Assembly (NCBI GenBank): GCA_025716815.1
Contig: JAIXMN010000014.1
Span: forward strand, 1 to 64,000
Length of the DNA stretch: 64,000 bases
Source: Dichotomocladium elegans
Lineage: Eukaryota; Mucoromycota; Mucoromycetes; Mucorales; Lichtheimiaceae
Direction: 5' to 3'
Shown: positions 875 to 48,599 of the stretch, one piece after another
Numbering within the stretch: the first letter of the stretch is position 1
Layout of the letters: each line of letters opens with the position of its first letter
The notes under the pieces: model-generated
Told to the model about the DNA's origin: nothing
The model's database searches: none
The model's input: the letters and a program-made list of their open reading frames with translations, nothing else
Translations under genes and position numbers: made by a program

Positions 875-1117
875 TGAAGGAGAAGAGGGAGCGCAAGAGG
901 CTTAACCGCCTAACCCTCAACAAGACCGCCACTGCCGATTCGTGCCCTGCTCGACAGGTTGCCGAAAAGAAGCACCCCGCCGACGAGGAGCTCGAGCTCA
1001 TGGAGCTTGATGCCGATGCCTGTCTGGAACTGGCTAAACATTCGTCCGGTAAGCGATTGCGTTTGAATGCGTTGAATACCCGAAGCGATTCTTTAAGGCT
1101 GACAACTCCTATCCTCA

Positions 1118-4100
1118 TACAGAGTGAGCGTCTCTTGGGTCTCTCGACACCGGAGCGGAAATGTCGGTTCTTAATAAAGATATTTGCTTAAAAAACAACT
1201 GGGTTATCAATGACGCTTCAGGACTCATCCTATACGCTGGAAAAAATGATCAATTACCCCGTTTGGGCACCACCGATCGCTTCTTATACGCTACAACCAT
1301 CGAACTATCAAGCATTCGTTTGAAGTTATGGATCTTAATGATGACACCGATGTCATAATAGGTCTAGACTTACTGCCAAGACTTGGTGTTGCTTTGACTG
1401 GCGTTGCGACAAGGTGGGATGATGACGACGAACTATTAAACAAGAAGGATGAACGTGTCGTGCCATATGAAGATGAAGCCGAACCGAACAATTCACCTGC
1501 AGGTACACCGTCTGAACAAACTGCATTCCATAGGGCACTCGAACCATATATCAAGGCCAATGCAACGATCCCGAAAGATGCTTTCTGTACGGTACCTGAG
1601 TCAGTCATCTATCTCGACACTCCCAAAGGTGTATCCGCATATCAACGACAATACCCTTTACCTTATGCTGTACGTCCCATTGTTGATGATGCTGTCAAAA
1701 GTTGGCTCGAAGACGGTATTATTGTCAAGGCATCCGTCAATTCCAGCTGGAACAGTCCTCTCACTTTGGCCGACAAGAAGGATGAATATGGCAACAAGAC
1801 TGGCAAACGTCCATGTCTGGATCCTCGCCACATTAATAAGTATCTTCCTGATGACCGATATCCATTACCTTTGATCAAGGAAATCTTTTCATCCTTAGGT
1901 GGTTCAGCTGTATTCACTACGCTAGATCTCAAGAGCGCGTTCCATCGATTCCAGATTAATGAAGCTGACCAGCACAAGACCACATTCACTCACGATGGAA
2001 TCCAATACATGTTCCGCGGATGTCCTTTCGGTTTGAAACCCATATCGTCCAAGTTCCAAAGAGTGATGTCGTCGATTTACAAGGAGATGCCATTTGTCCA
2101 AACCTTCGTGGATGATATCGTAGTACACTCGCGTACAATGGCTGAACATACACGCCACGTCCAATTGGCTATCCAAGCACTGACCAACGTCAATTTGCTC
2201 CTCAATCCCGCAAAGTGCCATTTTGCCCAACGATCGGTTTATTTACTTGGATTCTGTATCTCGCAGAGTGGTATTACCCCTGATGAACGAAAACTTACCA
2301 ATGTCCTACAGTGGCCTATACCCGAACGGGCAAGGATGTAATGCGTTTCATGGGGATCATCAATTATTTCCGCGACCATATTCCAAAGGTTTCTGAGATC
2401 AGTGCGCCACTCGATGCGTTACGTTCCGCTGGATCTTTGAATCAGCTCTGGACTGACGAGCATACTGCCTGCTTCAATAAGCTGAAAGCTCTGTTAGCTG
2501 AGCGTACCCTCTTGCGATACCCAGATCTCTCATTACCGTTTTACGTGGCTACTGATGCATCCAACTACGGGATTGGCGCCGTCCTCTTTCAAATGAACGA
2601 TGGTGTGAAGCAATATGTATCGTTTATGGCTCGCTCTCTCAGCAAATCCGAACGCAACTATTCAACAACCAAACGAGAGCTGCTAGCAGTTGTATATGCG
2701 CTACAGAAGTTTCATCAGTATCTATGGGGAAATCCATTCACCCTATACACCGATCATAAAGCGCTGACATACCTACATACCCAGAAGATTGCTAATCCTA
2801 TGATGATTAACTGGTTAGATACTCTTCTCGATTATTCCTTCCAAGTGATTCATCTACCAGGTATTGAGAATGTGCTGCCCGATAACCTTTCTCGCTTGTT
2901 CGCCCCTGCCGACCAGCTGGAGGGGGGTGATGTTCCTATTATACGGTCAGCAAAGAAAAATCCGTCCAACAAACGTGTATTCGTCATCAAGCCTTTCGAA
3001 TTTCCACAAGATACGATGTGTCCACCTGAGGCCGAACGTCCAGCATTGTTGGAAAAGGCACACTTAACGGGCGGTCATGAAGGAGCAGAGCATATTGTGC
3101 GATCGCTGCATGCCGATGGTGTCCACTGGGCAAACTTGTTCCAAGATGCGGTAGAGCACGTACGATCATGCATTCAATGTCAACGTTACAACATTGGCAA
3201 ACGAGGTTTCAATCCCTTGCGACCAATATACGCATACTTACCAGGTGATCACTGGGCAGTTGACTTGATTAACTTTCATCGCACTTCATGCAAAGGAAAC
3301 AATTACATTATCGTCTTTGTCGATGTGTGCACACGCTTTTGTATACTGCGCGCACTACCAGACAAGGCGGCCGATACCATCATTGAAGTTTTCAAGTCTG
3401 TATTCTGCGATTTCGGACTACCCAAGATTATTCAGTCAGATAACGGAAGCGAATTCAAGAACTTCAAGATGAAGACCTTTGTTGAGAATCTGGGAATTGA
3501 CCACCGACTTACTACGCCTTATCACCCACGCGCTAATGGTGTTGCCGAACGATGGGTGCAAACCACGCTGAGTGTCATTCGCAAGAAACTACAAGGTGCT
3601 GGTAAAGACTGGGATTTCTACGTTCCCAGTACACAGCTGGAAATCAACAGCCGCATTTCTGAGAGGTTGGGTTCCTCCCCATTCTCCCTCATGTTCGCGC
3701 GACGAATTAACGAGTTGAAAGACTACCGCGACAAGAATGCTGTTGAAAAACGCGCGTCCACACACGAGGAATTAATGGAGCGTGCCGCGTATATGCACGA
3801 TGTCGTCTTTCCTGCCTTGAAACGAAAAGTGGAAGAGCATGGAGATAAACAGAAGAAAAAATTTGACGAAAAACATCACTTGACAGACTTCCCAGAAAGG
3901 AGTCATGTGATGGTCCGTGTACAGAACCGGAAAAGCAAGCTAGCTCCGATCTTTGAAGGACCTTATACCGTGCTACGCAAAACACAAGGAGGATCATATG
4001 TGTTGCAAGACGAAACTGGAGCGTTAATGCCTCGCGACTATTCACCCTCTGAGATGAAACTGATCAATCAAGACGAAGTTGTCCCTCAAGATGAATTATA

Positions 4101-4395
4101 TGAAGTACAGGCCATCATTGCACACAAAGGAAAGCCAGGAAACCGTCAATATCGCGTACGATGGAAGGGTTATGGACCTGAAGATGATCAATGGTTGACA
4201 CCCGACAAATTCACCGATCCTGGATTCATCATCGAATACTGGCATAGACTGGGACAAGATGAAAAGAATGCTGATGTACCACCCGAAATTGAGTCATCGC
4301 ACAAAAAGGATAAAGTACCCAGCAAGAAACGATCACGATCTGACTATAACAAGACCGACAAGAATTTGAGAAGAAGTCAGAGACGACGATCTTAA
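1118..4395 (+). pseudogene. Pol (protease, RT, RNase H, integrase, chromodomain) of the decayed element
   Basis: The protease active site LDTGAEMSVL is at about 1141-1170 and is followed by a frame break. Reverse transcriptase runs from about 1600 to 2330 with TTLDLKSAFHRFQI and the catalytic box FVDDIVV. A one-base frame change near 2325 separates it from the block at 2335-4395. That block holds the end of RT, RNase H (YVATDASNYGIGAVLF), the integrase zinc region (CIQCQRYN), the DDE core (DHWAVDLI, QSDNGSEF, ANGVAERW) and a C-terminal chromodomain ending near residue 640 (RVRWKGYGPEDDQW). Chromodomain integrases steer insertion by binding histone marks, which is family knowledge. The copy cannot make one continuous polyprotein as it stands. 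Confidence 0.92.
2914..2932 (+). promoter_or_regulatory. Central polypurine tract-like copy
   Basis: The sequence cagctggaggggggtgatg lies between the RNase H and integrase parts of pol. It nearly repeats the 3' polypurine tract just before the LTR at 4455-4470 (ctggaggggggtaatg). The intact element at 8454-14209 has the same arrangement. A second plus-strand priming site is the obvious reading, but this is inference. Confidence 0.6.
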
Positions 4396-6096: not shown

Positions 6097-6641
6097 TCTA
6101 GACTACCCCCAGTTGTATTCTGACAGTTATGTGTCCTCCGCATATCCGCTAAGAAATTCACCAGATCCTCCGGCGTGAAATCGGTGCACGAGACGTTGTT
6201 GGCAGATGCCCAGGCCAGGAACCGTAATTGATTTTTGCGGTAACACTTATTGGTACCATTAGCTGCAAGTTGCTGCGCCAGAAGGTCCTCGATCGCCTGC
6301 GCATTGAGGTTCCGGCGTTCTAATTTGTTCCTGATAATTGCCACACGGAGAGCATCCAATTGTGGTGCAATAGGGGGTGAGTGGTCTTCGGAGAGGTCGT
6401 TATGATTGACTCCAGAGGTAATAACCAAGGAGGAGTCAGAGCTAGTCGCTGTATCACCGGGAACCAAAGGGCGCTGGGCCAATACGGAACCACTAGCGTC
6501 ACCATAGGTAGCTGTTCCTGTATGATCTTGTTGACCACCCGCGTGATGAGGTTCCAAGGTGGGTTTATGAACGGGTTGTGAAACGTCGTCCATGGAATGG
6601 AGAACGCATCCGTGTGGATGGCATCCGGGTCGGGCATCCAA
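6097..6641 (-). pseudogene. DIRS tyrosine recombinase, N-terminal part only
   Basis: The frame opens with a long polar leader. From about residue 90 it gives a helical segment of the kind that forms the DNA-binding SAM-like domain of tyrosine recombinases (NKCYRKNQLRFLAWASANN, then FTPEDLVNFLADMRR). The catalytic domain with its R-H-R-Y residues is missing because the reading ends at the MITE border near 6096; beyond it the frame runs into MITE sequence. It overlaps the end of pol in another frame, as is usual in DIRS elements. Such recombinases insert the circular cDNA without a target duplication, which is family knowledge. The assignment rests on position and the helical domain rather than on catalytic residues. 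Confidence 0.75.
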
Positions 6642-8448
6642 GATACGTACTTTGACAACAATCTGGTTGTCCTGTCAGCGAATAGATCGACCGAGAATGG
6701 GCCCCATGTACGGTGGATTTGTTGGAAAAGGGCAGGCCGGATCATCCATTGATTCTTGAAATATTGGCGGCAAGACTCGAAATCGGCGATGGTGTTGTGG
6801 ACTCCTTGGATATGTTGGGCCTGGAGCATAATCTTGTTCTCCAGACACCACCGCCAGACTTCGGTGGCCAGTTCCAGGAGGGGAAGAGAGCGAGTTCCAC
6901 CTTGCTTGTTGATGTATGTCATGCTGGTGGTATTGTCGGTTCTGATCAGTACTGTCGAGCGTTGTGGTGGGTGGAAGGTTTGGAGAGCCAGAAGAGCTGC
7001 CTTGGGTTCCCGCCAATTTATGGATTGGGCCGCCTCCTCTTTTGTCCAATAACCATGTGCTCGACGATGATTCCAACTGCAACCCCACCCGGTATCGCTT
7101 GCATCGACAAAGATTGTCTGTGATGGCGTCGAAGGGAGCAGTGAGCGTCCGTTCCATTTGCGGATGTTCGTGTACCACCATTGAAGTTCCTCCAAACTCG
7201 CTTGATCGAGCGGGCGAGGCGAATCCCAATCCGCATCTGCCTTCACTGTTTGGTTCTTGTAATATAGCAGGCGTCGAGTATATAAACGAGCAGGGAAGAT
7301 AGCAAAGGTTGCTGACTGAATACGCATCGTTAGGCTGTGGATGATCCATGGAGACTGCCGAAGGGGGTTGTCCAGGACTTGCTTGATCGAACGGCGGATG
7401 TCCCGAAGTTTCGCTGGCGGAAGTAAAGCAGTCATTGAACGGGTATTCAATACAAAGCCGAGATGTTCCAGTTGTTGGGTGGGGATGAGAACGGACTTCT
7501 TGTAGTTGACTAGCCAACCGAGATGTTGCAAGAGGGAGACAACCTGATGAGACTGTTCCATCGCCAATTGCTTGGACTCGGCGAGGAGAAGCCAATCGTC
7601 CAAGTATGCGGAGATCCTGATGCCCAGCGAGCGCAGATGTTCTAAGATGGGCCTGCACACTTTGGTGAACACAAAGGGACTTGTGGACAAGCCAAAGGCG
7701 GTCGTACAGTATTGGTAGACTTGGCCTTTCCAATTCAGGCGTAGGAACCGTCTCGAAGCTGGGTGAAGCCCTATGTGAAGAAAGGCGTCGGACAAATCGA
7801 TTGAAACCAGATAATCGTTGGGTCTTATCATTAGTGCGACTTCCCGGATGGTTTCCATCTTGAAATGCGGAGCCTCCAGGTATTGATTCAGACGTTTGAG
7901 ATTGAAAACTGGGCGGACGCCGCCATTCTTCTTGGGGATCACGAACAGAGAGCTGTAAAAGCCTGGTGTTCGTCGAACTTCCATATCGGAGACAGGTTCG
8001 ATTGCTTGCTTGGACAGCAGATCGTTGATTGCTTGGTCGATCAACAGAATCTGGTCAGGGCCAAAAGGCTGGATGGGTGTTGGGGTTGTTGTGGTTGGTG
8101 GCTGGGTGTGAAATTGAATGTTGTAGCCGTGTTGTATGGTGGTGTCGACAAATGAGTTGAGAGAAAGTTGGGTCCAATGTGTATAAAACTTGCTGAGCCG
8201 ACCTCCTACTGGGTCGGATGGTGGCCTGGTTGGGGCAGTTGTTGAGATTACTGACGGAAGGGATTGGTGGACTGCTTGTTGTGGTTGTTGCTGCGGTGGT
8301 TGGTCCGAAAGGAGTTGCTGTCGCTGTTGCTGTTGCTGTTGCTGCTGTTGTTGTTGGTGTTGTAGTTGTTGGCATTGTTGAAACCACCCTGCTGAGAGGG
8401 TGGACCTGGCCAAAAAAATGGTTGATCTGGGCCATTCGAGAAAGAGCC
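6320..8448 (-). CDS. DIRS Pol: reverse transcriptase, RNase H, methyltransferase-like domain
   Basis: The frame is open from the LTR junction to a stop at 6320. After a glutamine-rich leader, the RT domain shows GVRPVFNLKRLNQYL, SIDLSDAFLHIGLHP and the catalytic AYLDDWLLLA. RNase H follows (IFVDASDTGWGCSW, RTDNTTSMTYINKQGG). The C-terminal third carries the DIRS-type N6-methyltransferase-like segment with FSVDLFADR and NPPW. The start codon is unknown: the frame overlaps the end of gag in another frame, so translation may depend on frameshifting or reinitiation. An upstream ATG at 8464 belongs to the inserted LTR and is not the native start. The frame itself is intact, so this DIRS copy was probably young before it was hit. 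Confidence 0.92.
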
Positions 8449-8453
8449 CGAAG

Positions 8454-8835
8454 TGTGGAATCAAGGGGTTTTAAGAATAAAAAGAGACAGAATATGATTC
8501 TGTGAGACTCGCAAAAGGATTGTTTTTTATTGAGTGCCAATAATGGGCCTATTTATAAGAAGTGCTTATCAAAACGGTCACTCTGGAGGTTGGGTGTGGA
8601 TAATCATCTAGGCGGTCTCCCGGGACGGTGGACCAGTTAAAAGGTTGATAAAGAAGTTCATCATTTACCCTTGTGATTATAACTGCGTCCTGAGACAGGT
8701 CCGGGATAAAATTATGAATCCGGATAGCGCGAGAGTAATTATGATAACGGCGCTCGAAGAGTGAAACAAAGTGTTGATGTCCCGTATAATCCAGGGACAC
8801 TGCTGTTAGGTAAGAAAATAGTCGTGGATACGACA
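8454..8835 (-). repeat. 3' LTR of the intact Ty3/Gypsy element
   Basis: It is 382 bases long, identical to 13828-14209, and preceded on the minus strand by the polypurine tract. On the minus strand it holds a TATA box (complement of 8550-8557) and AATAAA-like signals downstream. Confidence 0.97.
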
Positions 8836-8969: not shown

Positions 8970-11900
8970 CTAAGTGCGTCTGCGTTTTGCCTGTCGATCA
9001 GAGCGACGTGTAGGCAGTGTATTGCGTTTATCTGGCTCTGTCATTGACGCTGTAGCCAAATGTTGCGCAGTTGCTTGATGACTTGTGCGTGGTGTCGGAT
9101 TGCGGCGATTCCAGTATTCGTTGATTAGCTTAAGATCGTTGAAATGCTCGGCTGGCTCCCATGTGTCATCCTTTGGCTCATAGCCTTTCCATCGGACACG
9201 GTAGAGGTAGTTGCCAGATGAGCCCTTGTGATCCACTATTGCCTGAGTCTCGTAAAAGTCATCGCCCGAAGCAATGCTGTCTTGTGAGATCAGCTTAATG
9301 TGGGAAGGTGGAATGTCGCGTGAAAGCAAGGAACCCGTTTCATCAGTCAAAGTGTAGGGTCCACCATGTCTGCGACGACCATGCACTGTAAATGGACCTT
9401 CGTAACGAGGATCGGTCTTTTTCTTCCTGTTGACATTTAGGATCATGACCTTGCTACCAACAGGGAATTCGCTTAAGATGCGATGTTTGCTGTTGAATTT
9501 CCCTTGCTGGGCCTCGTGAAGAGCTTTGACACGTTCAGAGATAGCTGGAATGACGACCTCGTTCATGTAATGTTCACGGGTGTCTGCAGCTCGTGTCACA
9601 TCGTTGATATCGGCGACTTCGACGCTTGAGTAGTCCTGCCAGAGATTAGGCTGTCGAGCAAACATGAGAGAGAAAGGACGAGAGTCGTGCAGCGATGTGT
9701 GTTTGCTGTTGATAGCTAATTGTGCACTGGGAAGATACATATCCCAATCCTCTGTTTTTCCTTCTAACCTCTTGATGACTGTTGCTTTAGCCGTTTGTAC
9801 CCAACGCTCAGCCAAACCATTGGCACGCGGATTATAGGGTGTGACAAGACGATGGTCAATTCCGGAATGTTCCACCACAAGGCGTACTAATTCGTTTACA
9901 AACTCTGTACCGTTGTCTGACTGTAAGATCTTCGGAAAGCCATAGTCACAAAAGACGTGGATGAGTTGTTTAGCGATTGAAAGAGCCGATTTGTCAGGTA
10001 TAGCTCGAAGAATGCAGAATCTCGAGAAGACGTCTACCATGACCAAAACATAATTATTGCCAGATGGAGAAGTGGCGTTAAACTCGCACAGATCAATAGC
10101 CCAGTGATCACCTGGCTTGTCTGCGGTAATGTTGCGTAAAGGGTGGTAACCGTGTTTGCCGATGTTGTAGCGTTGGCACGCTTGACACTTGGCAACGGTA
10201 TTGAGAGCATCTCTCTTCAAGTTAGTCCAATGTATACCTTCTTTGTGCAACTCAGTCACAATTGTATCAGCACCAAAGTGACCATTGAGATGAGCCTTTT
10301 CTAGTAATATGGGACGTTCTTCCTCAGGAGGCGTCATGAAGTCCAAAGGCGTAGCAGAAGCAGAACGCTGAAGAAGCGGTTCAGCATTGCTTGTAGGGCG
10401 TACAGGTTTTAAACTGCCCAAAGTAGGGGTGCGACCAATGGTTTCGGAGATATTACCCCCCACCAGCTTCTTCGGAGAGAAGAGGCGACTGAGAGTATCC
10501 GGAAGAATGTTGGTGATGCCAGGAATATGAACAACCTGAAAGTTGTAATCACACAACGTGTCGAACCAGTTCACCATCATCGGATTGGCAATTGGTTGAG
10601 TGTGCAGAAACGTTAGAGCACGATGGTCGGTGTAAAGAGTGAATTTGTTGCCCCACAAAAACGAGTGAAACTTCTTGAGAGCATATACGACAGCGAGAAG
10701 CTCACGTTTCGTAGTGGAATAAGAACGTTCAGCTTTGTTCAGAGCACGCGCCATAAAACCAATATAACGGTACTGATTGTTCTGGATTTGATAAAGACAG
10801 CAACCTATGCCAGTGTCAGAAGCATCTGTGGCAACATGGTAGGGCAAAGTCTCATCCGGATAGCTCAATACAGGAGCAGCATGGAGAGCAGCCTTGATAG
10901 CATTAAATGCATGAAGATGGTGTTGTGTCCATAATCCTGAAAGCTGTTTAGCGTTGCGTAGACGGTCCAAAGGAGAAGTGAGGACGGCAACGTTCGGAAT
11001 GTGATCGCGGAAGTAATTGACGAGGCCCAAAAATTTCTGGATGTCATGGCCTGTCGTGGGCACAGGGATCTGGTCCACATTGCAAATTTTCCGAGGGTCC
11101 AAATTGACACCCCTGGCACTTACACAAAAGCCCAATAAATAAACGGCGGATTGTGCCAAATGCGATTTTTCCGGATTGAGAACCAAGTTAACCTCTGAGA
11201 GACGTCTGATAGCCTCCTGCACGTGCAACACGTGGTCAGATAAATTGTTCGAAAAGATAATAATGTCATCGATGTAAGTGACTGCGTTGGGCATGTTGTC
11301 GAAAACAATGTGCATTACACGTTGAAATTGGCTCGAAAGAAACTTGAGACCAAAAGGTGCGCCAACAAAGCAGTACTGTCGATCCTTGAATGTGAAGGTG
11401 GTTTTGTGCTGACGCTCCTCATGAATCTTGAAGCGATGAAATGCGCTCTTCAAATCCAGAGTTGTGAACACCGTAGCACCCTTCATTCGTTGGAAAATCG
11501 ATCGAATGAGTGGAACAGGATAACTGCTATCAGGAAGCAAGTTATTGATCAAGCGTGGATCCAGACAGGGACGAAATGCAGTCGGGTTTCCCTGGGAATC
11601 CTTCTTAGGAGCGAAAGTCATGGGGCTATTCCAACCAGAACCAGCTGGAGCAGGACGAATGATCCCATCAGCAAGCCAATTGTCAATGTGTTCCTGCAGA
11701 AGAGGAATCAGCTTGTCAGCTAATGGATATTGTCGGCGGCTCACGACTTTGCCAGCAGGAGTATGCAAATAAACAACAGATTCCGGAATAGTACAAAATG
11801 AAGACGGCGGAATGGATGCGTTTTCCTGAAGAAATGGTTCAATATCAGCCAAGAAGCGAGAATGCTCCTCAGGTGTGCCAGCCGGAGAATCATTTGGCGT

Positions 11901-13790
11901 AGGCAAATCAATGTCCTCAGAAGGAGAGGGTAAAGTGGAGCGATGCCAGCAATGGGCGAGACCTCCAAGAAATATACCAATAAGTGGCATGAGATCAGTG
12001 CCAATGGAAACATCGGCTTCACAATTAAGTGTCATAACTTCAAAAGAGTGCGAAACAGTAATTCCGTTGTGAAGGACTTTTATTGCAGACGTGGTACCAA
12101 TTCTATTAATGCTATGACCAGGGTGAGCTAATCCGATCGTTCCAGAAACAGTGGAAACTTGGATGCCCAGCTGTGCGGCCAGCGAAGGAGAGATGGCGCT
12201 GAAGGTGGCACCAGAGTCCACAAAGGCCCATAAATCAGTCTCCTGTAAAGTGATAGGTACGTAATACGTGTTAGTCCTCTGGAGAGAGTACTGTTGCAAA
12301 GCAGATAATGACTTACAGTCAGCACATGCCTGGTTCAACGACGCAGACACGTCAGCCATGGAGATATCAGTCTCCATAGGGACAGCAGCAGGCGCAAGGC
12401 CAACTGGAACAGCAGCGGGAACTGCACCCACTGGAACAGCCACTACGCTTCCAGAAGCGGTAGCAGGGACACGAGAAACAGAGGCAGGAGCGGAAGCAGG
12501 AGCGGACATTGCCAATGTGGCTGAGCGTATTGCCAAGTGGTTGACGCGGCACTTGTGACTACGCGTCCAACCGGGCTCACCACAGCGGAAACAATTCTTG
12601 TCACTTTCGCTCTTTGTTATTGTTGACGCGGCGACGGAAGCGGCAGATGCAACAGCTGACGACGTGGACGGTTTTGACACCCGGTTTCCTTGTGAGCGGG
12701 GCACGGCACCAGCTGCCAGTTGTCGACAATCACTGGTGGAATGTCGTCCTTTGCCATGCAGGCGGCAAAATTTCGTCGTGGCCTTTGTTTTGTTCTTTGG
12801 GGCGGCGACGGAACCAGGTGACGGAGCGCGAGTGGTTTGTGTCGGTTGCTCGTTGGTTAACTCCTTGCTGTGCATTGACAGCACGACACTGGAATAGAGG
12901 CTGCGCGCCATAGCGGCGGCCTGCTCGATCGTTGAGCGCATCTCCACTGGAACGTTAACTTGGCCGATCATGACGTGTTTGGCCAATTCCGGTAACAAGG
13001 CCTCAATGAAGATGGTTGTGGTTGTAAGGTCATTTGCCAGACCAGCCTCGCGACGCACCCGATTAAACCGGTCAGTGAAAAGTTCAACCGATTCGTTGCG
13101 GTTCATGCGCATGCGAAGCAGTTCGCGCAACTTCTGCACCTTGCGTTCCGTGTCTTGAACACCATATCGAGAGATAATAATAGCTCGCACCTTGGACCAC
13201 GGAAGATGGGGGTACGGCTTCAGATTTGCACCAAACCAGTAGCGTTGCTCAGGTGAAAGCATGCGTGGGACAAATAGTGGCCAAACGTCATTGGCGTCGT
13301 ATTGCCATGAGGCAACCACGTCCTCAAACGAGTCCAAACACTCGTCCACACTGCCGAAGACGGTCTTGTTGGGGGCGTGGATGTTGTCTGCCCACTGAAG
13401 TGCAGGTAAGTCTGCAGGCACCCGAACTTGAGTAGATGGGCTGGTTCTTGCATTGGCCGAAACCAAGTGGCTGGCCGAGTTTAACAGCTGGAGGTCGCGA
13501 GTGATTGCCTCGAACTCTTGGTGGATGGCCTGACGTTCCTCCGGTGTGGCGCCTAAGGCCAACTGCTCTGCCAAAGAAGCAGCACGAGCGTTGAGAGTCC
13601 GTATCGCCTTTTCAGCACGGGCGGAAGGGGAGATACCCGCGGCCGTCATTGCGCTGTCGATGATCATGTCAATCTCTGTGTGAGCCGGGGAGTTGGGATC
13701 ATGGAACGCTCCATCGTTCTGGCTGTGATCCACATGGACGTCTTGGATGGCTCCAGAGGCAGGAGAAGCAGAAGCGTTGTTGAAGGACAT
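8970..13790 (-). CDS. Gag-Pol polyprotein of the intact Ty3/Gypsy element
   Basis: This is a single 1606-residue frame with no frameshift between gag and pol. Gag fills about residues 1-400, with the capsid core at about 130-300 and a zinc knuckle CFRCGEPGWTRSHKCRV near 400. The protease motif FVDSGATFSAI is near 525. RT spans about 690-870 (TTLDLKSAFHRFKI, VTYIDDIIIF). RNase H is near 970 (VATDASDTGIGCCLY). Integrase has an HHCC region (HFGADTIV, CQACQRYN), a DDE core (DHWAIDLCEF, QSDNGTEF, NGLAERWVQ) and, at about residues 1525-1570, a chromodomain (YRVRWKGYEPKDDTWEP). All catalytic boxes are present. A single fused frame implies that Gag:Pol stoichiometry is set after translation, as in Tf1-like elements; that comparison is inference. 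Confidence 0.97.
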   Translation of the reverse strand: MSFNNASASPASGAIQDVHVDHSQNDGAFHDPNSPAHTEIDMIIDSAMTAAGISPSARAEKAIRTLNARAASLAEQLALGATPEERQAIHQEFEAITRDLQLLNSASHLVSANARTSPSTQVRVPADLPALQWADNIHAPNKTVFGSVDECLDSFEDVVASWQYDANDVWPLFVPRMLSPEQRYWFGANLKPYPHLPWSKVRAIIISRYGVQDTERKVQKLRELLRMRMNRNESVELFTDRFNRVRREAGLANDLTTTTIFIEALLPELAKHVMIGQVNVPVEMRSTIEQAAAMARSLYSSVVLSMHSKELTNEQPTQTTRAPSPGSVAAPKNKTKATTKFCRLHGKGRHSTSDCRQLAAGAVPRSQGNRVSKPSTSSAVASAASVAASTITKSESDKNCFRCGEPGWTRSHKCRVNHLAIRSATLAMSAPASAPASVSRVPATASGSVVAVPVGAVPAAVPVGLAPAAVPMETDISMADVSASLNQACADCKSLSALQQYSLQRTNTYYVPITLQETDLWAFVDSGATFSAISPSLAAQLGIQVSTVSGTIGLAHPGHSINRIGTTSAIKVLHNGITVSHSFEVMTLNCEADVSIGTDLMPLIGIFLGGLAHCWHRSTLPSPSEDIDLPTPNDSPAGTPEEHSRFLADIEPFLQENASIPPSSFCTIPESVVYLHTPAGKVVSRRQYPLADKLIPLLQEHIDNWLADGIIRPAPAGSGWNSPMTFAPKKDSQGNPTAFRPCLDPRLINNLLPDSSYPVPLIRSIFQRMKGATVFTTLDLKSAFHRFKIHEERQHKTTFTFKDRQYCFVGAPFGLKFLSSQFQRVMHIVFDNMPNAVTYIDDIIIFSNNLSDHVLHVQEAIRRLSEVNLVLNPEKSHLAQSAVYLLGFCVSARGVNLDPRKICNVDQIPVPTTGHDIQKFLGLVNYFRDHIPNVAVLTSPLDRLRNAKQLSGLWTQHHLHAFNAIKAALHAAPVLSYPDETLPYHVATDASDTGIGCCLYQIQNNQYRYIGFMARALNKAERSYSTTKRELLAVVYALKKFHSFLWGNKFTLYTDHRALTFLHTQPIANPMMVNWFDTLCDYNFQVVHIPGITNILPDTLSRLFSPKKLVGGNISETIGRTPTLGSLKPVRPTSNAEPLLQRSASATPLDFMTPPEEERPILLEKAHLNGHFGADTIVTELHKEGIHWTNLKRDALNTVAKCQACQRYNIGKHGYHPLRNITADKPGDHWAIDLCEFNATSPSGNNYVLVMVDVFSRFCILRAIPDKSALSIAKQLIHVFCDYGFPKILQSDNGTEFVNELVRLVVEHSGIDHRLVTPYNPRANGLAERWVQTAKATVIKRLEGKTEDWDMYLPSAQLAINSKHTSLHDSRPFSLMFARQPNLWQDYSSVEVADINDVTRAADTREHYMNEVVIPAISERVKALHEAQQGKFNSKHRILSEFPVGSKVMILNVNRKKKTDPRYEGPFTVHGRRRHGGPYTLTDETGSLLSRDIPPSHIKLISQDSIASGDDFYETQAIVDHKGSSGNYLYRVRWKGYEPKDDTWEPAEHFNDLKLINEYWNRRNPTPRTSHQATAQHLATASMTEPDKRNTLPTRRSDRQAKRRRT
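10453..10466 (-). promoter_or_regulatory. Central polypurine tract-like copy
   Basis: On the minus strand the sequence agctggtggggggtaat lies between RNase H and integrase. It repeats the core of the 3' polypurine tract (ctggtggggggtaat) exactly. Confidence 0.65.
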
Positions 13791-13794
13791 TGCA

Positions 13795-13827
13795 AAATAA
13801 GGGTAAGTGAGAATTCACAGAAAAAAA
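13795..13827 (-). promoter_or_regulatory. Primer-binding region after the 5' LTR
   Basis: On the minus strand the LTR is followed by tttttttctgtgaattctc and then the gag ATG within 40 bases. I see no obvious complement to a tRNA 3' end. TTCTGTGA here is complementary to TCACAGAA within the LTR transcript (complement of about 13873-13880), which could allow self-priming of the Tf1 kind. Confidence 0.35.
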
Positions 13828-18952: not shown

Positions 18953-20595
18953 ATCCTACCAATTGTTACTTTATTTTCGAAAATATATTTCGTATAGAAG
19001 ATAAAATAATGTCGCATAAAGTTATACGACGTTGTCGAAGCAAATTTTTAGCCCGAAAATATAATTTAATCCTTCCCCATGCGCTTTAACTTACACCTAT
19101 GTCCCAGGGATTAGTCAGACATGTGCTGCTGATAACCAGCAAGGAGAAATCCGGGGGAGAGGCGGTGAAAGAGCAACGGCAGAACCACCGGCGGAAGAAA
19201 AGAGGGTCCCTGCCACGAAATAGCCAAATCGCGGCCCAACTGCGAGGTCTGGTATCCTTGCATACCTTTCCATGACCTTAGATACCGGTGAAATTGGCCA
19301 ATCTAGAAGAAGCAATGTGTATCAGGCAAAGAATAAACTCAAGTCAATATCGTAAAGATTCATCCCGGGTAAGGCCATGGAAGGGAGGCTAAGAACGGAT
19401 TGATAAGATAGCAATCATGTGTGCAGGACTTCAGTTATATATAGGAAATCAAAGTGGCATAGGAAGTGTGCGACCATGCATAACTATTTGTGATGGACAA
19501 CAAGCCATATATATCATATGATATCCTCCTTTAAAAATTTGCATCTACAACGCTCATCGCTGTTAATTTACAATGCTTACTCTATCCCTGACGTTCAACA
19601 TAAAGCCCACAAGGTTGCTACAAGCTAACGTAAACGGGCGGTTTTTCGCGGATAAGCACGGTTGTTTTGACAACAGACGTCATTTTCTTGATTTCCCATA
19701 AAGTATATATTACATGCAGTTTTAAGTTTCATTATTTCTGGTACGAGGACAATCTGCCGCAAGGAGAGGATTATCTAACAGGTAAACGAAAAATTATACT
19801 ATGGAAAGGTCAACTGAAAGCTTCCCGAAAAGACAATAGCTGCGGTTCAGGGCATGGAGAAACCGAAAAACGAATACCGCAGCTTTATCTGTGAAATAAC
19901 AGGAGTAACTCGTGTCGCAAACAAGACGTCCACAATGCTGCATACACTTACTTATCTCACAGCTGCCTATTCCCTTTAACTCGTCCATCCAAGAATGCTC
20001 AGGAGACCCGGAGACGATAATTTAATCGAGAGGATATTTAGCCCAAACATTTTATCAAGGGTAATGGAATCTATCAGAAGCTATATCGCCTGATAATGAG
20101 ATCTAGCACTAAGATTACCCACATTGCACCTCAGGTAGTGGAGGGAGTCCATGCTGAGACATATGGGAATGTGCACTTAACCGCCACCGCATCAAAATTG
20201 TTTTATCGCTATCCGGCATATGCAATGTCTTCATGGAGTTTCAGCTCTTTGTACTGCCGTCCATAACAGCGTCTGATCTGAATATGTCTGCCAGTATCAT
20301 CAATTATGCGCAAACATTACACACCACAGAGACACAGCCCTGTGAATGACAAGGTCTTTATCATCTGTTTCGCTTATGAATTATTCTATATAAATCAGAC
20401 AAATGACCATCCACTTGTCATACCGTAGTTATAGGGTCTGTTTCTTTATTTTATCCGAGTTCCAATCTCATACTACATGATTGGATATAGAAGTAATGGT
20501 CTTTATATCTTAGCGACACGTTCATATAGTCAAACTAATCTGGAATCAATATCTTATCATATTCACTCTTTTTTCACCTTTATTTTTTACATATC
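18953..20595. other. Intergenic with a dispersed repeat, no gene recognised
   Basis: AT-rich. A stretch at about 19265-19405 is clearly similar to 46900-47046. Bases 19065-19145 resemble 24708-24790 (ccttccccacactttaactt-like). I see no coding sequence. Confidence 0.55.
19265..19405 (+). repeat. Dispersed repeat, copy 1 (partner at 46900-47046)
   Basis: Shared blocks include ctttccatg, gtcaatat-taaagattcat and gaagag/gg-agcc/t-aagaa-gg-ttgata. Identity is roughly 75-80 percent over the last 80 bases by eye. Both copies lie on the same side of a Tc1/mariner fossil. Confidence 0.55.
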
Positions 20596-20599
20596 TATA

Positions 20600-22145
20600 T
20601 ACGTACTATGATGACTACTGTAGAATTATCACAAGTCGGATCATAGCTTTCTCCGATTACGACAGTTAATCAGACATCTGTAAGAATGAGAGAACGAACC
20701 CTTCGAATCGCCTCATTAATTCGGGTTATCAGTGTCTCGCATTCCAAAAATCTATTCCGATTTGCTTTGTTCCTAACAACCGACCAAAACCGTTCAATAG
20801 GATTGAGTTCAGGCGAAGAGGATGGACGGTAAGGCAATGACATCCTCGAGAGTCGATGTACTTAGAGTTATCCTCAGTTTTATGAATAGGTACATTACCC
20901 ATTACCGGATAATGGTCGTTCATATGTTCATACTTGTTCATTTCATCCATAATAGCCTTAAGAAAGCTGAGATAATGACCGGTTACAATTTCTTTGCTTG
21001 CAACTGTGGAATGCTCCGCTCTTTTACGCTTTCTGGGCTCGTGGTTGTGGGAGACTCAAGCTACATTCAATGATGCATGCTGTCGATATCACTTCTAATA
21101 TGGTCGTTGTTTAGATCTTGTTACTGCGACGACTGTAATTACTGCAGAATTCCCTTTCTTGGACCATGCCATGCTGCGCTTCAAGTTTATATGGAAGTCA
21201 GGTCCATCAAGGAAACTATGGTTTTTTTCTATAGTCGATGTCGGTCATGTCTCATCGACCCACCCAATCATGGTGCTCTATGATCTTTACGTCGCTATGT
21301 CTGTCTACAGGCTGAACTGACCCCTATTCAGTGACGAGTTTCATTCATTTTTTAGAAGTCGGTGGAGCGTCATCCGCGATACTTTAAGGTCCTCGAATCT
21401 CTGGAGCAATTACTCCATTAGTTAATCTAAGACAACTGACTGATTTTTATCAATCTATTCTAAAATAACACTCTTATGCTCGCCATTGAAAATAAGTGAA
21501 CGATCTCTACGTCCACGTTCTTTAAAACAATTGAAAGGGTCTTTTTTGTACTGTGATGCCCATTCCTGAGCTAAACCGAACGCGGATTCCTCGCTGTTTT
21601 GCAGAAGTTGATGCACTCAAGATCTTCTCGAACATCAGTTTGAAAAATCTGACCTTATATTTGCCGTTGTACATTGTGTAGATGCGCTTAAAATCTGCCT
21701 CTTTCATCAGAATGTCTGTATCCTTTCGCTTGGGGGATATGAGAAGCAATAAGATCAGGGTTACCCCTGGAAGATAGACTACGCAGATCTTCAGTGCGAG
21801 AACAAACGGGTTGCGGAGAGTACGTTTCTTCATCGACAACATAGTCCATAGGTTCAGGACAACCACACTCATCAACAACATGCCATTGGCCATCTTCCTA
21901 TAAAATAGGTTACTCATTTCAGCATGTAAAATCGTATAAAAAGAAAGAGTCAAAGGACGAGACGGATTTGCCAAAGCGGCATCTTTCCATGTATTCATGT
22001 GACATTTGCTTTGCCATCGTGTGTCTTCTGGACAAAACGCGACTTTGTTTTGTGATCTTGCGATTTCGGTTTTGGGAAATAGTGTATGTTTCTGATGCAA
22101 AAGGCATCGATTGTGTGTAGATATAACTATACGATCCCCAACCAA
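20600..22145 (-). pseudogene. Tc1/mariner-type transposase fossil, copy A
   Basis: Read on the minus strand, the right part (22145-21540) matches the N-terminal region of copy C (KRKDTDILMKEADFKRIY, VRFFKLMFEKILSAS). The left part (20950-20650) matches its C-terminal catalytic part (NKYEHMNDHYPVMGNVPIHK, followed by SRGCHC). Multiple frame changes and stops lie between them. The position expected to hold the second catalytic Asp reads Gly (VMGNVPIHK). The fossil is about 1.5 kb, slightly longer than a minimal mariner, and it has a predicted membrane-like garbled section that is only frame noise. Terminal repeats were not resolved. Confidence 0.85.
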
Positions 22146-24375: not shown

Positions 24376-24894
24376 TTTCCAAAAGAGGTTACTACGCGCA
24401 GAGAAAATCGAAGGGTTAGTTTAGAGCCACAGGTCACATACAGAAAAGGAAATCCCAGCTCGCACACGGAAAGTGCTCGGTAAGTAGAAACCTACTTTCA
24501 GCAGTTCGTTCATAGAAATATTTTTACATGATGCATGTATTCCTGGTCTGTATCAGCTTGTGAACAGAAAATGAACCAACTGTGAGTTAGTGGACAGTAA
24601 TGTGAACTAGCAGTACTTTTACTTTTGGCAGCAATCAAGGGAAGGAAACAAGTATTTGGATTTGCAAGATTGTGCATGTACTTTTAAATTTCGCAAGTGG
24701 GGAAAATATTATCCCTTCCCCAACACTTTAACTTACCCCAAAGGTATCCAGATGTGTGCCGGCGATAACCGACACGGAAATCATCGCTGTTGGCGACCTC
24801 GTCCTGGTCCTCTTCGTCTCACCTTCGCTCCTCGGGCTCTGGTGATCTAGCCCTTCTTGCTAGGCGCCTGTCACCGCCCGCAGGTGCTCCCCGA
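24376..24894. other. Intergenic, upstream of the methyltransferase
   Basis: This should hold the methyltransferase promoter and perhaps a missed first exon. Bases 24708-24790 resemble 19065-19145. Nothing else is recognised. Confidence 0.45.
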
Positions 24895-25790
24895 AACCTT
24901 TCCGGGACCATGCCATGCTGCGCTTCATGGTAATATGGAATCCAGACTCATCAAGAAAAACGCAGTTTTTTCTAACGTCGATGTCGGCCATGTCCCATCG
25001 CGCACCCAGTCAAGGCGTTCTTGGACCTTTGCATCGCTATTCCTGTCTACAGGCTGAAACCAAGCCATTTTCAATGACAAGTTGCATTCATTTTTCATAA
25101 ATCGATGGAGTTTTGGATACTTTTAGACCCTCAAATGTCTGGAGCAGTTGCTCCATCAGCTGCTCTAGGACAATTGACGGATTCTCATCAACCAGTCTAA
25201 AATAGGATACGTGGACGACCCCTGCCTCTACATTTCTTGAAAATGCTGTCAGGGTCGTTTTCGTACTGTGATGCCCGTCGCTGAGCTGAACGAAGATGGA
25301 TTCCTAGCTGTTTTGCAGCAGCTGACGCACTCATTACCTTCTCATACATCCGTTTGAAAAATCTGACCTTGTCTTGGTCAGTGTACGCTGTGTACTGCGC
25401 TTGATCCCCGCTTCTTTCATCCGAATGTCTATATCCTTCCTCTTGGGAATGTGCGTGGCAGTAAGCTCAGAGTTATCTTTGCAAGATATGCTACGCAGAT
25501 ATTCTGTATGAGAACAAACGGATTGCAGAGAGTACATTTCTTCATCACCGACATGGCCTTGACCATCGTAAAAAAAAGTAGATTGCTCATTTCAGAATGT
25601 AAATGGGTAGAGATGGATTTGCCAAGTTTTTTTGAGCAACATCTTTCGCTGTGCATGCGACAGTTGCTTTGTCATCACGCGTAAAGATTTCTGGGCAAAA
25701 CGCGGCTTCTATTTTTGTAGTCCTGCGACTTCAGAACTGACTGGGTACGACTTTAATTTTGGGAAAACAGTGTATGCAGAATATGCGTGA
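24895..25790 (-). pseudogene. Tc1/mariner-type transposase fossil, copy B, truncated
   Basis: The minus strand matches the N-terminal two thirds of copies A and C, including RKDIDIRMKEAGIKRS and the helix-turn-helix region. The left end stops near 24895 at the conserved accatgccatgctgcgcttc block, so the half with the second and third catalytic residues is missing. Several frame changes are present. The right end reads ttttgggaaaacagtgtatg, comparable with the right end of copy A. Confidence 0.8.
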
Positions 25791-42876: not shown

Positions 42877-44456
42877 ATGACTTATTGTCTTTCTCAAACA
42901 ATACTTTCCATGTCAAGAGTAGCTCTAACGAAAGCTCAAGAGAAGCAGCTGTGCATTTATGCACAAACCTTATTGAAAACAAGAGAAAGCAAGGCCAAGA
43001 TCCTACCAGCATGGGCCAAAGAGCGGTTTAAGCTTGAGAAAGAGCCAGGTTCCTCAACTATCAGTGACATTCTCAAGCTGCACGACAAATTGATGGAGCT
43101 GTCAGACGCTGAGCTTTCTGCAAAACGTGACAGGAAACCTGATCTTCCGCAGCCAGAAGAAATACTCGCTCAACTTGTGAAAGAAATGGTAGCAGCGGGG
43201 GCCCCTCAGCCGTTTACTATTGGAACTTGAAGAAAGGACCCAGGCGAAAAGGATGAACATTACCCTGAAACCAAACTTCAAGTTTTCGGATGGATGGATG
43301 ACAAAATTCATGAAACGACACAACTTGAAGTCGCGTCCGATGCATGGAGAGGCGAGCAGTATTGATGTAAACTGCGACAATGTTCAAGAACAGCTCCGGC
43401 AAGTCAAGTGTAAGAATGCTACGTACAAGCCAGAGCATGTGTACAACATCGATGAGACCGGTTTGTAATGGAGAATATCACCCAGACAAACCATCTCGGA
43501 AACACCTGTTGCGTGTACAAAGAAGGCGAAGGAACGGTTTACAGCTGTATTTGCATGCAATGCTGATGGGTCGCACAAACTCCTTGTGACATTTATTGGC
43601 CATCATAAGAGATCAAAAGGCCCTGGTTTCAATGGAAAGCCAAGTACTATATATAAGCAAGCGATGTGCAATATATTGTTAGCTGTTCATTAAATATGAT
43701 GTATTAGTTTCTCGATGTGGACAGAACTATCGCTGCAACACCAAGGCATGGATGACTCGGGGTCTGTTTCGAAAGATCTTAGCGAAGATTGACAGCATTT
43801 TGGGTGTGCGACATCGTGGAGAAAAGGTTCTACTCCTTCTAGACAATGCTCCATCTCACGTTGGCCTTGATACCACATCCAAGAACCTTGAGCTGCGCTT
43901 CCTACCTGACAACACGACCTCACATTTCAACTTTTTGATGCTGGGATCATAAACAGTGTCAAGGTTAAATACCAGTATGGTTTCTATAGGTTTTGTGTGA
44001 TGAGATACTACAAAGCTTACATTAATACTGTACAATAGGTCAAGCCTCATGATCGATGCCTTAGGTAAAGTCCGCCGACATTGTCATGACGATCTATTCA
44101 AGATCAGTTTGAAGAAAGTGTATGACTATGTCCTTGTCGCATGGTCACGCATCATCAAGGAAACCATTGCGAATTGCTGGAGACACACAGGCCTCCTCAG
44201 TGATATTGGTAGCTCCGATATGAAGCACGGTACCACTAAGGAGCAAGTGGAGGATGACGAGCAACGCATATCTCTTTTCAGTAAGCTCTTTGGTGAAGAA
44301 AAGAGTTCCACTGCTGTTCCTGTCTATTTGGATGTTGAGAATTCAGGTATCCATGAGATGCTTACGATAAACGAAAGGGTTGATCTCTTGGGAGAATCCA
44401 CACAGGGTGAAGGTACGTTGATTTTTGCAACCCGCTTTTGTGTGAGACATGTGTAA
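42877..44456 (+). pseudogene. pogo/Tigger-type (DDE_1) transposase fossil
   Basis: Plus-strand blocks appear in family order. A first HTH region (SRVALTKAQEKQLCIYAQTL) comes first, then a CENP-B-like second HTH (FKFSDGWMTKFMKRHNLKSR). Next come EHVYNIDETGL with Asp 1 at 43451, FTAVFACNADGSHKLL, NTKAWMTRGLF, VLLLLDNAPSHVGL with Asp 2 at 43842, and LRFLPDNTTSHF followed, after a one-base shift, by FDAGIINSVK with Asp 3 at 43937. All three acidic residues survive. The frame is broken near 43228, by a TAA at 43466 and again near 43930. The C-terminal part runs to about 44456. Terminal repeats were not found with confidence. It precedes the Fanzor-like gene on the same strand. Confidence 0.9.
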
Positions 44457-45020: not shown

Positions 45021-46784
45021 TTGAGAGGACCTAATGTCTTGCTGAATATTCGACAGCGGAAAGAGGAACTTGAAGAGCAGCTGATTGGCCAAGGTCTGGG
45101 CGCGACACAAATCAGTCAACGCATTCGAGAGACACCCGCAACAACATTCAAACCGATTGTAGCTCGTCGAAACATATCCAGAGACGACGTCCCCGAAGAC
45201 CCAGCTTATCTTCAGGAAGCTTTCGACGCCATCCAGCCAATTTTCGATGCCTACACCAGTACCCACGCCTTTGACAACGATAGCATCTACTACGATGCAA
45301 AGGTTCATCCAATCCAACATATGGCAGCCTTTTACCAGTTCGCTCTCCTTTTTGAGCGACTTCAGGTGCCTGCATCTGGTTGTTTCCCTCTTCGTCGGTC
45401 ATGGTCTCTGTCATACATAATGATTGATTCAAAATCATATGGGAAAACATTCTGGGTCGCTCATGGGCCAAAAAAGTTCTTTATCCTGGCGGATGGGATG
45501 AAGTCATCGATGTCCACTCGAAAGCTCTCAAGCCTGCAGAGAATGGAGTATTTCGATTTCGTGGTACGCTTGAAACCGATGGCGTAGGAGTCTCCATTAT
45601 CCAAGAAGAGAAGGGACAGGGATGCACCCCCCCAAGAACCAGTGCAGCTCCGAAGGTGGAGGAGCATTCTCCATACGTTGACAGTCTGACCGCTGAGAAG
45701 CATCGAGAAATTGCAGGCCGATGCGTAACAGTGGATCCAGGGCGTAGAGATATGCTCTATTGTGTCCATGAGCGTCCGATTTCACTTGAGCCTGTCAAGT
45801 TTGGCTACACCAAGCAAGAGCAAGACAAGATCAGGGAGATAAAGCACCGGCGATTGATACAAAACTCAAGAACCAGGACGAGGAAGTTGTACGTGGTGAA
45901 CTCTACTTCTCGGGAATCCGGAACAACACTTTGGAAGTCGATGATCACTCCCGTTTCCTCGTTGCCAGGGCTGACGAAATTGCTATTCTTCAGTAGTTTT
46001 ATAGATCATCAGAAACGATTCATAAGTCCTCTCGATTTTTGATGCGCAAACTTCGTCTGTCATCGAGCTTCAACAAACACCGTGCTGGCCTCAAGCTCAT
46101 CAACGAACTGAAAAGAAAATTTGGAGAAACCGCTGCGTTTGTGATGGGAAACTGGTCGGCTCCCCATGCCAGATATCGCGAACCCATCCGTGGAAAAGAG
46201 TTTAGAGTGCTACTGCGGAAGAACGTGTTTGAGGTGTTCCTCATTGACGAGTATAAAACAACCAAGTGCTGTCAAACTTGTCTCAATGAGAGCTTATCAA
46301 CATATAAGCGAGTGCCAAATCCACGACCAGCCCGTCGAGGAAGGGAACAAAGATGGCGTTCGGATGTGATATATCATGCTCTACTAAGATAAGGAGGTTC
46401 TTCTCACTTTGAATATATTAATAATATTCTTTGTAGATGCAGTCATCAAAACTGCAGTACTCGGCGCCTGTGTGGAACCGGGATCTGGCGGCATGTCCCA
46501 ACATGCACCACATCGTCCGTAGTCTTCGTTCTGATGGCTCAGTTCCCACAAAGATTTCGCCGAGGAGCCGTGCTGGCTGTCAGGATCCAGGATCCAGAGC
46601 CGGACCAGCGAAACGTAAGATCACGAGGACCACTGCGACAACCAGGACCACGGGGCTCACATGGGACACAATCTCCGCATTAGATCCTTCTATCACATTC
46701 ATTCCGCTACGGCCTATGCCCCATGCCACTTTTATTTTATCTTTATCTATGTATTACTTGCCTCAGAATAGCATATATTGTTGA
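45021..46784 (+). pseudogene. Fanzor-like (eukaryotic TnpB relative) RNA-guided nuclease, broken
   Basis: Fanzors are transposon-linked nucleases guided by an RNA from the element end. N-terminal part, 45033-45430: helical, with TTFKPIVARRN, a DAKVHPIQHMAAFYQFALLF stretch and CFPLRRSWSLSYI. After a one-base shift, 45432-45855 gives ENGVFRFRGTLETDGVGVSI and RuvC-I CVTVDPGRRDMLYCV (Asp at 45734). After a second shift, 45855-46388 gives SSSFNKHRAGLKLINELKRK, AAFVMGNWSAPHARY and RuvC-II FLIDEYKTTKCCQTC (Glu at 46249) with the first zinc-ribbon Cys pair. The second Cys pair (RCSHQNC) is at 46437-46455. RuvC-III VWNRDLAACPNMHHIV has its Asp at 46482. Breaks: about 45431, about 45855, TAG at 45994, about 46345, a lost splice donor at 46389, about 46460. 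It lies between Tigger and Tc1/mariner fossils. The family call is from motif order. Confidence 0.75.
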
Positions 46785-47200
46785 TTTTAATGACATTTCT
46801 TTAGCCAATGTCTCAGTTCTTCCGCACACGTCTCACCTGAGGGGCATCTGGCTAACGACATGAATGGACAAGTTAGAAACGAAAGGTAGTCGAATATCGT
46901 CTCTTTCCATGGCATTGGGGGGGGTGTTTAAAAACTGGTCAATGTACTAAAGACAGTAGGTGTTAAATTGAATGCAAAGAAAGTCAATATTATAAAGATT
47001 CATACCAGGTATGATGATGGAAGAGAAGCCGAGAATGGGTTTGATAAACAAAAAAAAACAGTTTTCTCAAACCTCCATCATACAGGAAACCAAGCCAGGC
47101 CAATGGCTAATAAAATCTATTGATGATCCCACGAAGTGAACGGTCCTCGATAGATCCAATTCTTACACGCATACACTTCCTTTCTAACCTATTTATACAG
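46785..47200. other. 3' flank of the Fanzor-like gene, contains dispersed repeat copy 2
   Basis: In intact elements the guide RNA comes from the 3' side of a Fanzor or TnpB gene. Here 46900-47046 is similar to 19265-19405. A G8 run at 46918-46925 and an A9 run near 47050 are present. No guide RNA can be called by eye. Confidence 0.4.
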
Positions 47201-47216
47201 TGTGCTCTGCGTAGAA

Positions 47217-48520
47217 TTATCCCAAGTCGGGTCTCAGTTGTTCCCCATTACGGCAGTTAACTAAGCACATATGAGAATGGGAAAGGAAACCTTCGAAATC
47301 GCTCAGCTTTAAGGTAATCGATGCTCCGCTGTTTCGTGTCATCAACGTCTCGCTTTCCAAAAATCTATTGCGTTTAACTTTGCTCTTGACCATTGACCAA
47401 AACTGCTCAATAGGATTGAGTTCAGGTGAATATGGTGGAAGATAAGCATGTCGATATCCTCGAGACTCGATGTATTTCGAGATATCCTGAGCCTTATGGA
47501 TAGATGCATTACCCCTTAGCAAACAGTGACCCTTCATAGGTTCATACTTATCCATCTTGTCCATTGTTGCCTTAAGGAAGCTGAGATAACATCCAGTTAC
47601 AGTTCCTCTGCTCGCAACTTCAGATTGACCTGTCCTCTTTCTTTTCTTGGTTGGCGACTGCTGGAGTCTCAAGCTATACTTAATGATGCCTGATGCTGAG
47701 ATTGTTCCCAAGATTGTGGTTGTCGTTGCTCTTGTCTTTGATACTGTAACCACTCCAGGAGTACCTTTCTTGAACCATGCCATTCTGCGCTTCATATTAA
47801 TATGGATTTCAGAATCATCAACGAAAACGCAGTTTTTTCTAAAGTCGATGTCGGTCATGTCCCATCGCGCACCCAGTCAAGGCGTTCTTGGACCTTTGCA
47901 TCGCTATTCCTGTCTACAGGCTGAAACCGAGCCATTTTCAATGATAAGTTGCATTCGTTTTTCATGAATCAATGGAGCGTCGTTTTGGATAATTTGAGAC
48001 CCTCGAATCTCTGGAGCAGTTGCTTCATCAGCTGCTCTAGGACAATGGATGGATTCTCATCAACGCATTCTAATATAATACTTTTATGCTCTTCATTGAG
48101 AATACGTGAACGACCTCTGCCTTTATGTTTCTTAGAAATGCTGTCAGGGTCCTTTTCGTACTGTAATACCCGTCGCTGGGCTGAACGAACCTGGATTCCT
48201 AGTAGCTGATGCACTCAAGACTTTCTCAAACATCAATTTGAAAAATCAGATCTTGTCTTGGTCAGTGTATGTTGTGTAACTGCGCTTAATCCCCGCTTCT
48301 TTCATCCGAATGTCTATATCCTTTCGCTTGGGATTGTGTGTGGCAGTAAGCTCAGGGTTATCTTTGCACGATATGCTACGCAGATATTCAGTGTGAGAAC
48401 AAACGGATTGCAGAGAATACATTTCTTCATCAACGACATAATCCAAAGGCTCAAGACAGCCACGCTCATCAACGACATGACCTTGGCCATCGTAAAAAAA
48501 ATAGATTGCTCAGTTCAGAA
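47217..48520 (-). pseudogene. Tc1/mariner-type transposase fossil, copy C (best preserved)
   Basis: Minus strand. The N-terminal piece is 48446-48246 (KRKDIDIRMKEAGIKRSYTT). The HTH piece is 48214-47969 (VRSAQRRVLQYEKDPDSI, VLEQLMKQLLQRFEGLKLS). The catalytic piece is 47858-47217, with FRKNCVFVDDSEIHINMKRR (Asp 1), KGHCLLRGNASIHKAQDI, and YSPELNPIEQFWSMVKSK (third acidic residue). The second catalytic position reads Gly (RGNASIHK). Frame breaks separate the three pieces. Ends: left near 47205 (ctctgcgtagaattatccc), shared with copy A near 20620; right near 48590. All three copies lie on the minus strand. Confidence 0.92.
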
Positions 48521-48599
48521 TTTAAAAGTGTATTTGCGATCCTGCGACTTCAGAACTGGCAGGGTGCGACTTTGATTTTGAAATATATTGTATAATTCA

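Follow-up and report, generated by a model that had tools for sequence, protein, structure and literature searches.

TnpB-like nucleases may help an element to reclaim the site from which it has been excised, and the Fanzor enzymes considered here, one gene of which lies in a 64,000-nt stretch of Dichotomocladium elegans DNA (contig JAIXMN010000014.1, positions 1 to 64,000; this whole stretch is called the window below), belong to an enzyme type that is already known. D. elegans is a mucoralean fungus of the Lichtheimiaceae, and a phosphatase gene of the window is 100% identical, over 77% of its length, to a protein of this species. The best PDB sequence match of an intact paralogue of the window gene is PpFz1 from Parasitella parasitica (PDB 9cf0–9cf3; expect value (E) 3.9e-120, residues 22–623), which has the active-site motif DPGRRD in common with the D. 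elegans Fanzors. Some 93 residues that separate the matched stretches in PpFz1 (chain 1001–1095) are lacking in the paralogue and are probably the FRI insertion of PpFz1, and the accessible part of one report gives its target motif as ATN (PMC11423790), against the TATA predicted in D. elegans. The second relative is SpuFz1 in the element Spu-1 of Spizellomyces punctatus (PDB 8gkh), with about 25% identity in the fold alignment of a Mucor homologue. As far as the accessible parts of two papers describe it, Spu-1 resembles the D. elegans elements in being a TA-flanked inverted-repeat element with several intact copies, a right-end guide RNA, Fanzor-free ghost elements and a fixed dinucleotide (CA) before the left repeat (PMC10432273, PMC3627910). 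Unlike Spu-1, the D. elegans elements have an intron, a transposase remnant and one family in which the predicted guide RNA lies on the other side and strand. Another published element likewise unites a transposase and a Fanzor1 gene in one TA-flanked unit, and the accessible part of its description mentions neither a guide RNA nor an inversion of the nuclease gene. ISDra2 TnpB with its right-element RNA (reRNA; PDB 8bf8, 8exa) is prokaryotic and shorter, and did not come up in the PDB sequence searches (E up to 10).

The window locus is, with high confidence, a dead Fanzor1 gene in a dead Tc1/mariner-type transposon, the working relatives of which most likely act like SpuFz1 and PpFz1. The basis for this is homology, the fold of a homologue, the structure of the element, intact copies with a low ratio of nonsynonymous to synonymous substitution rates (dN/dS) and a covarying RNA stem. 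In the working relatives, the protein would bind an expressed guide (omega) RNA, the scaffold of which would lie between the Fanzor stop codon and the transposon end, while the guide portion would read into the DNA past that end; guide-matched DNA would then be cut beside a TATA-like motif, that is, at the site left by an excised copy, and such cutting may help the element to persist in the genome.

Membership of the window copy in Fanzor1 is supported by sequence comparison with solved Fanzor1 proteins and by the Fanzor1 fold (REC-WED-RuvC-TNB) of a homologue. In a piece-wise PDB search at E up to 10, the window matched PpFz1 (9cf0) and SpuFz1 (8gkh) only, two window pieces giving E values of 4.6e-23 and 1.1e-16 for PpFz1 and of 2.3e-12 and 0.035 for SpuFz1, which together with the many matches in the genome puts the similarity well outside what chance would give. 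The motifs TVDPGRRD, LIDEYKT and WNRDLAA start at 45728, 46240 and 46473, so that the D-E-D triad stands in order, with a zinc ribbon between the glutamate and the last aspartate; the triad is retained in 13 paralogues, and the KCCQTC cysteines are still present in the window copy. The initial annotation, which had read 45021..46784 as a Fanzor-like RNA-guided nuclease gene in a transposon block, was right about its sequence blocks and their order, and tblastn with paralogues places the codons for Asp 45734, Glu 46249 and Asp 46482 exactly where it had put them; its predictions of a transposon setting and of intact paralogues elsewhere in the genome were also borne out, the latter for instance by uninterrupted proteins of 709 amino acids. 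Its boundaries need correction: a Fanzor does lie there, yet DNA homology begins at 45033 rather than 45021, protein similarity to two paralogues is seen to 46598, the break before RCSHQNC is the remnant of an intron and the whole unit is the transposon relic 45033–48590. It had not seen that the Fanzor and the DDE_3 gene form one element, that the N-terminus and the guide-RNA end are lost, or that, in this family, the Fanzor runs counter to the guide RNA. A Pfam scan of window pieces matched no Fanzor or TnpB family, PF07282 scored 15.4 bits against an intact paralogue (cut-off 26.3), and a genome search with PF07282 returned three places, making it a poor probe for Fanzors here; since the PDB matches are decisive, this weak Pfam result is not counted against Fanzor1. 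Most homologues bear the precomputed label PF26935, which was not returned by a Pfam scan of the paralogue locus L055.

The Fanzor and the DDE_3 gene are parts of one Tc1/mariner-type element, as the DDE_3 transposase, the inverted ends and the TA flanking the insertion site show, and its carrier is thus a eukaryotic transposon other than the IS607 type. The relic shares its transposase with other copies of its family, called A here; DNA identity to five of these is 86.4–87.5%, beginning at 45033 in two of them and reaching up to 48533. The PF13358 match (1.5e-23) covers 47220–47876, and N-terminal transposase pieces follow at 47969–48509. The left 1.2–1.3 kb of two other copies has no counterpart beside 45033, and a search with the guide-RNA model gave no match in 45033–48590, although the covarying stem is present in the family. 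The window copy is dead because it is 5'-truncated, has at least three frame changes and has an altered intron donor. Position 45033 corresponds to about residue 167 of the 709-amino-acid paralogue (alignment start 2555, ATG 2057); one tblastn alignment to a more distant paralogue reaches back to 44934, while the family DNA match begins at 45033. Similarity to a family-A paralogue runs through frame 3 (45033–45635), frame 2 (45431–45862) and frame 1 (45862–46392), and past the intron, which is 69 nt long in the 709-amino-acid paralogue, CSHQNC stands in frame 1 and WNRDLAA in frame 3, so that the three catalytic codons fall in different frames. The features are listed in Table 1.

Table 1. Features of the Fanzor1 locus and its transposon in the window (positions of the window; strand given as + or -, a dot where none applies).
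Feature	Position	Strand	Basis
Fanzor1 pseudogene, 5'-truncated, at least three frame changes and one intron	45033..46598	+	tblastn, PDB matches, DNA identity
RuvC-I aspartate codon (VTVDPGRRD)	45734..45736	+	aligned with VLMDPGRRD of PpFz1
RuvC-II glutamate codon (LIDEYKT)	46249..46251	+	aligned with LIDEFRT of PpFz1 and LLDEYKT of SpuFz1
RuvC-III aspartate codon (WNRDLAA)	46482..46484	+	tblastn with paralogues
Intron remnant, donor AT (not GT), acceptor AG	about 46389..46436	+	by-eye comparison with the GT-AG intron of the 709-amino-acid paralogue
Family-A mariner-Fanzor element, entire relic (left end and its guide-RNA segment lost)	45033..48590	.	DNA similarity to other copies
Degenerate DDE_3 (Tc1/mariner/IS630-type) transposase, convergent with the Fanzor	47217..48509	-	PF13358; common to family-A copies
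Surviving transposon end (CACC-type terminal repeat)	48566..48590	-	TATA flank at 48591–48594

A genome search with two window pieces, considering the best 150 of 335 and the best 150 of 306 candidates (window copy included), located at least 150 Fanzor places in 39 Mb, among which three close families, 639, B and A, can be told apart, with proteins 48–56% identical between families. Family 639, named after the 639 codons of its open exon-1 frame, has an element that measures 3,944 bp (CACC...AAAG) in the copy read from end to end, with a 709-amino-acid gene and a single intron; this protein is uninterrupted in 13 of 21 loci and has an early stop in five, and re-examination of the three loci that a first script had left unresolved yielded no further 709-amino-acid protein. 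Its dN/dS is 0.22 in frame against 1.72 and 2.13 off frame (14 copies with an open exon 1, mean nucleotide difference 0.6%), a value in which dN is biased somewhat low by the preselection of copies for open frames. Its transposase is a remnant in which the first 0.6 kb of the transposase side alone matches family A (586–1201), and as the DDE_3 catalytic part is gone, the family presumably moves with a transposase supplied elsewhere. In family B (648–649 open codons) transposase and Fanzor are co-directional; the copy read has a transposase split across frames and an open Fanzor exon, no CACC end was found within the sequence covered, and two copies give a dN/dS of 0.44 against 0.73 and 1.11 off frame. 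In family A, that of the window, the two genes are convergent; the longest open Fanzor frame in six loci has 576 codons and lacks the N-terminus, and dN/dS over 10 copies is 0.57 in frame, compared with off-frame values of 0.79 and 0.89. For the transposase of six family-A copies, the corresponding ratio of proportions of differences (pN/pS) is 0.62 in frame against 0.67 and 1.00 off frame, which indicates no clear selection, and the Fanzor of the same six copies gives 0.58 against 0.81 and 1.00. A more distant Fanzor family, L107 (G000:C24:1039700-1043200), has a single 669-codon open frame that includes the last catalytic motif; no intron precedes this motif, and the 3' region differs.

By analogy with Spizellomyces, the target motif of the Fanzor is predicted to be TATA, which stands beside the ends of these elements. 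Allowing up to 3 mismatches, 174 CACC ends occur in the genome; the CTTT end, with up to 2 allowed, gives 326, and neither pattern has a match when reversed. The left flank is TATA in 25 of 26 copies and TATA shifted by one in the remaining copy; the family-A CACC ends found, the window's included, have TATA in 5/5. The right flank is TA in 29/29 (two of 31 loci had no recognisable end, and the pattern tried TA-followed ends first), and a looser right-end pattern without TA still gave TA at well-matching ends. A boundary reading TACACC... was considered and is disfavoured; by-eye comparison of both terminal repeats points to an element running from CACC to AAAG, with TA lying beyond it. The analysis recovered no empty site: for the element at C28:508906, the left flank of which resembles by eye another copy of the transposon, the right end was not found in the stretch fetched. 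As a Fanzor motif TATA is a prediction, and it may instead reflect the target preference of the transposase and nothing else, an explanation that is quite possible, if a little short of probable. The right flanks agree with it in also favouring T (26/29) and then A (19/29) after TA; however, left and right differ (25/26 against 17/29, Fisher p 0.0012), and the fixed CA before the left repeat in Spizellomyces corresponds to the CATA motif of SpuFz1 given in the accessible part of one paper (PMC10432273). The latter counterpoint is itself qualified by the accessible part of a later paper, which gives, respectively, CATA and TTAA as the motifs of GtFz1 and SpuFz1 and so conflicts with CATA for SpuFz1 (PMC11423790).

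A segment beside one element end is predicted to encode the guide (omega) RNA. A strict pattern for it finds 156 sites genome-wide and none in the control, and family A carries the same motif at its CTTT end, the conserved segment being part of the element end in all three families. Its 7-bp stem is paired in 92.1% of cells (18 sequences), both sides have changed in four of seven pairs across three families, and the stem scores 0.538 for covariation, compared with 0.266 in shuffles (none of 500 reaching this value) and at most 0.137 when it is slid. The guide probably begins after AAAGTA and would be flank-derived; the accessible part of one Spizellomyces paper places the guide RNA in the same position, extending 14–15 nt beyond the conserved region (PMC10432273). 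Several results weigh against a guide RNA in D. elegans. Two of five covariation measures are not above shuffles, namely pairs with double changes (4 against a shuffle mean of 3.1, equalled or exceeded in 137/500) and additional types of pair (6 against 8.0, equalled or exceeded in 500/500), and one stem alone is supported; its sequences, chosen by motif similarity, fall into three groups, so that the double changes represent few events. Folding of the whole segment was no better than in shuffles (z -1.39, -0.72 and -1.26), an Rfam search of three loci at E up to 1 gave no match, and an element end is also constrained by transposase binding. That the segment is a transposase-binding end only, with no guide RNA, would fit these fold energies, the place of the segment at the element end in all three families and its occurrence in elements too short for a Fanzor; it is nonetheless improbable, in view of the pair-preserving double changes and conserved loop, unmatched in slid controls, and of the agreement in position with the Spizellomyces omega RNA.

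Nuclease and predicted guide RNA are arranged differently in family A. The first 100 of the 156 guide-RNA sites were compared with 150 and 149 Fanzor matches (the window's own being dropped). Among the matches listed, 48 sites of 639 or B type and 16 A-type sites have a Fanzor within 3.5 kb. Nuclease and RNA share a strand in 47 of the 48, the RNA lying 3' of the nuclease; in 15 of the 16 they are on opposite strands, and the RNA lies 5' of the nuclease. A further 36 sites (22 A-type, 7 of 639 type, 6 B-type and 1 unassigned) had no Fanzor among the matches listed, a figure that partly reflects the use of the best 150 of longer candidate lists. A CACC end lies on the same strand within 5.5 kb upstream of 46 sites (18 A-type, 28 of 639 type) and on the opposite strand in none (first 100 listed of each). 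The guide RNA thus keeps its direction relative to the transposon, and therefore the nuclease gene was what flipped; a short inverted-repeat element upstream of the gene, which family 639 and three of five family-A copies have in common, flipped along with it. This element is pogo-like, is unmatched in L105–L107 and lies, in Fanzor orientation, at 1638–1814 of the joined 639 element (L066+L055) and at 691–848, 1075–1232 and 1113–1272 of the loci L070, L072 and L074; it is a possible promoter source or inversion substrate. In 8 of the 18 A-type sites with an end within 5.5 kb, among those listed, the end is less than 2 kb away, leaving no room for a nuclease. It may tentatively be suggested, though it is rather unlikely, that the flipped nuclease and the end-fixed guide formed separate, oppositely directed transcription units, that the family multiplied in this state, and that elements without a nuclease could load nucleases made elsewhere; if true, a Fanzor guide RNA would not have to be processed out of the mRNA of the nuclease. 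Because the family-A copies are decayed and their signal is weak, selection gives no answer as to whether the inverted arrangement was functional. A literature search covering few subscription papers found nothing in print on Dichotomocladium Fanzors or on an inverted Fanzor/guide arrangement. That a useful though shortened protein, such as an RNA-binding regulator, is still produced from the window copy is hardly credible: all three catalytic codons and the KCCQTC cysteines survive, but the reading is spread over three frames, N-terminus, splice donor and guide-RNA end are lost or altered, and the family-A dN/dS given above is a weak, undatable signal.

Other repeats accompany the locus in the window. 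A relic of a DDE_1 transposase of pogo/Tigger type lies at 43469–43949 (+), just upstream of the Fanzor truncation. A B-type guide-RNA segment (24735–24782, -; 56.3 bits, although it is among the 16 sequences used to build the model) and an adjoining DDE_3 fragment (24896–25009, -) form a solo remnant without a Fanzor match. A degenerate element of the same superfamily at 18967–21232 (-) has a CTTT end, DDE_3 pieces at 20632–21232, a weak guide-RNA match at 19103–19149 (E 0.82) and no Fanzor match. An uninterrupted open reading frame of 1614 amino acids at 8970–13814 (-) is, judging from its translation, presumably gag-pol-like and from a long terminal repeat (LTR)-type retroelement, and further frames at 12–4395 and 6320–8470 are presumably reverse-transcriptase-like.

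The enzyme type is already known, and the window copy is a dead member of it, in an unusually informative family with one rearranged variant. One 39-Mb genome holds well over 100 Fanzor places in at least three related families, with many near-identical intact copies of low dN/dS despite a remnant transposase, as well as a predicted target motif and a predicted guide RNA that is supported by covariation. Because these are combined in a single genome, two questions become testable, namely which service a Fanzor renders to the transposon that carries it, and whether co-transcription of guide and nuclease is required.
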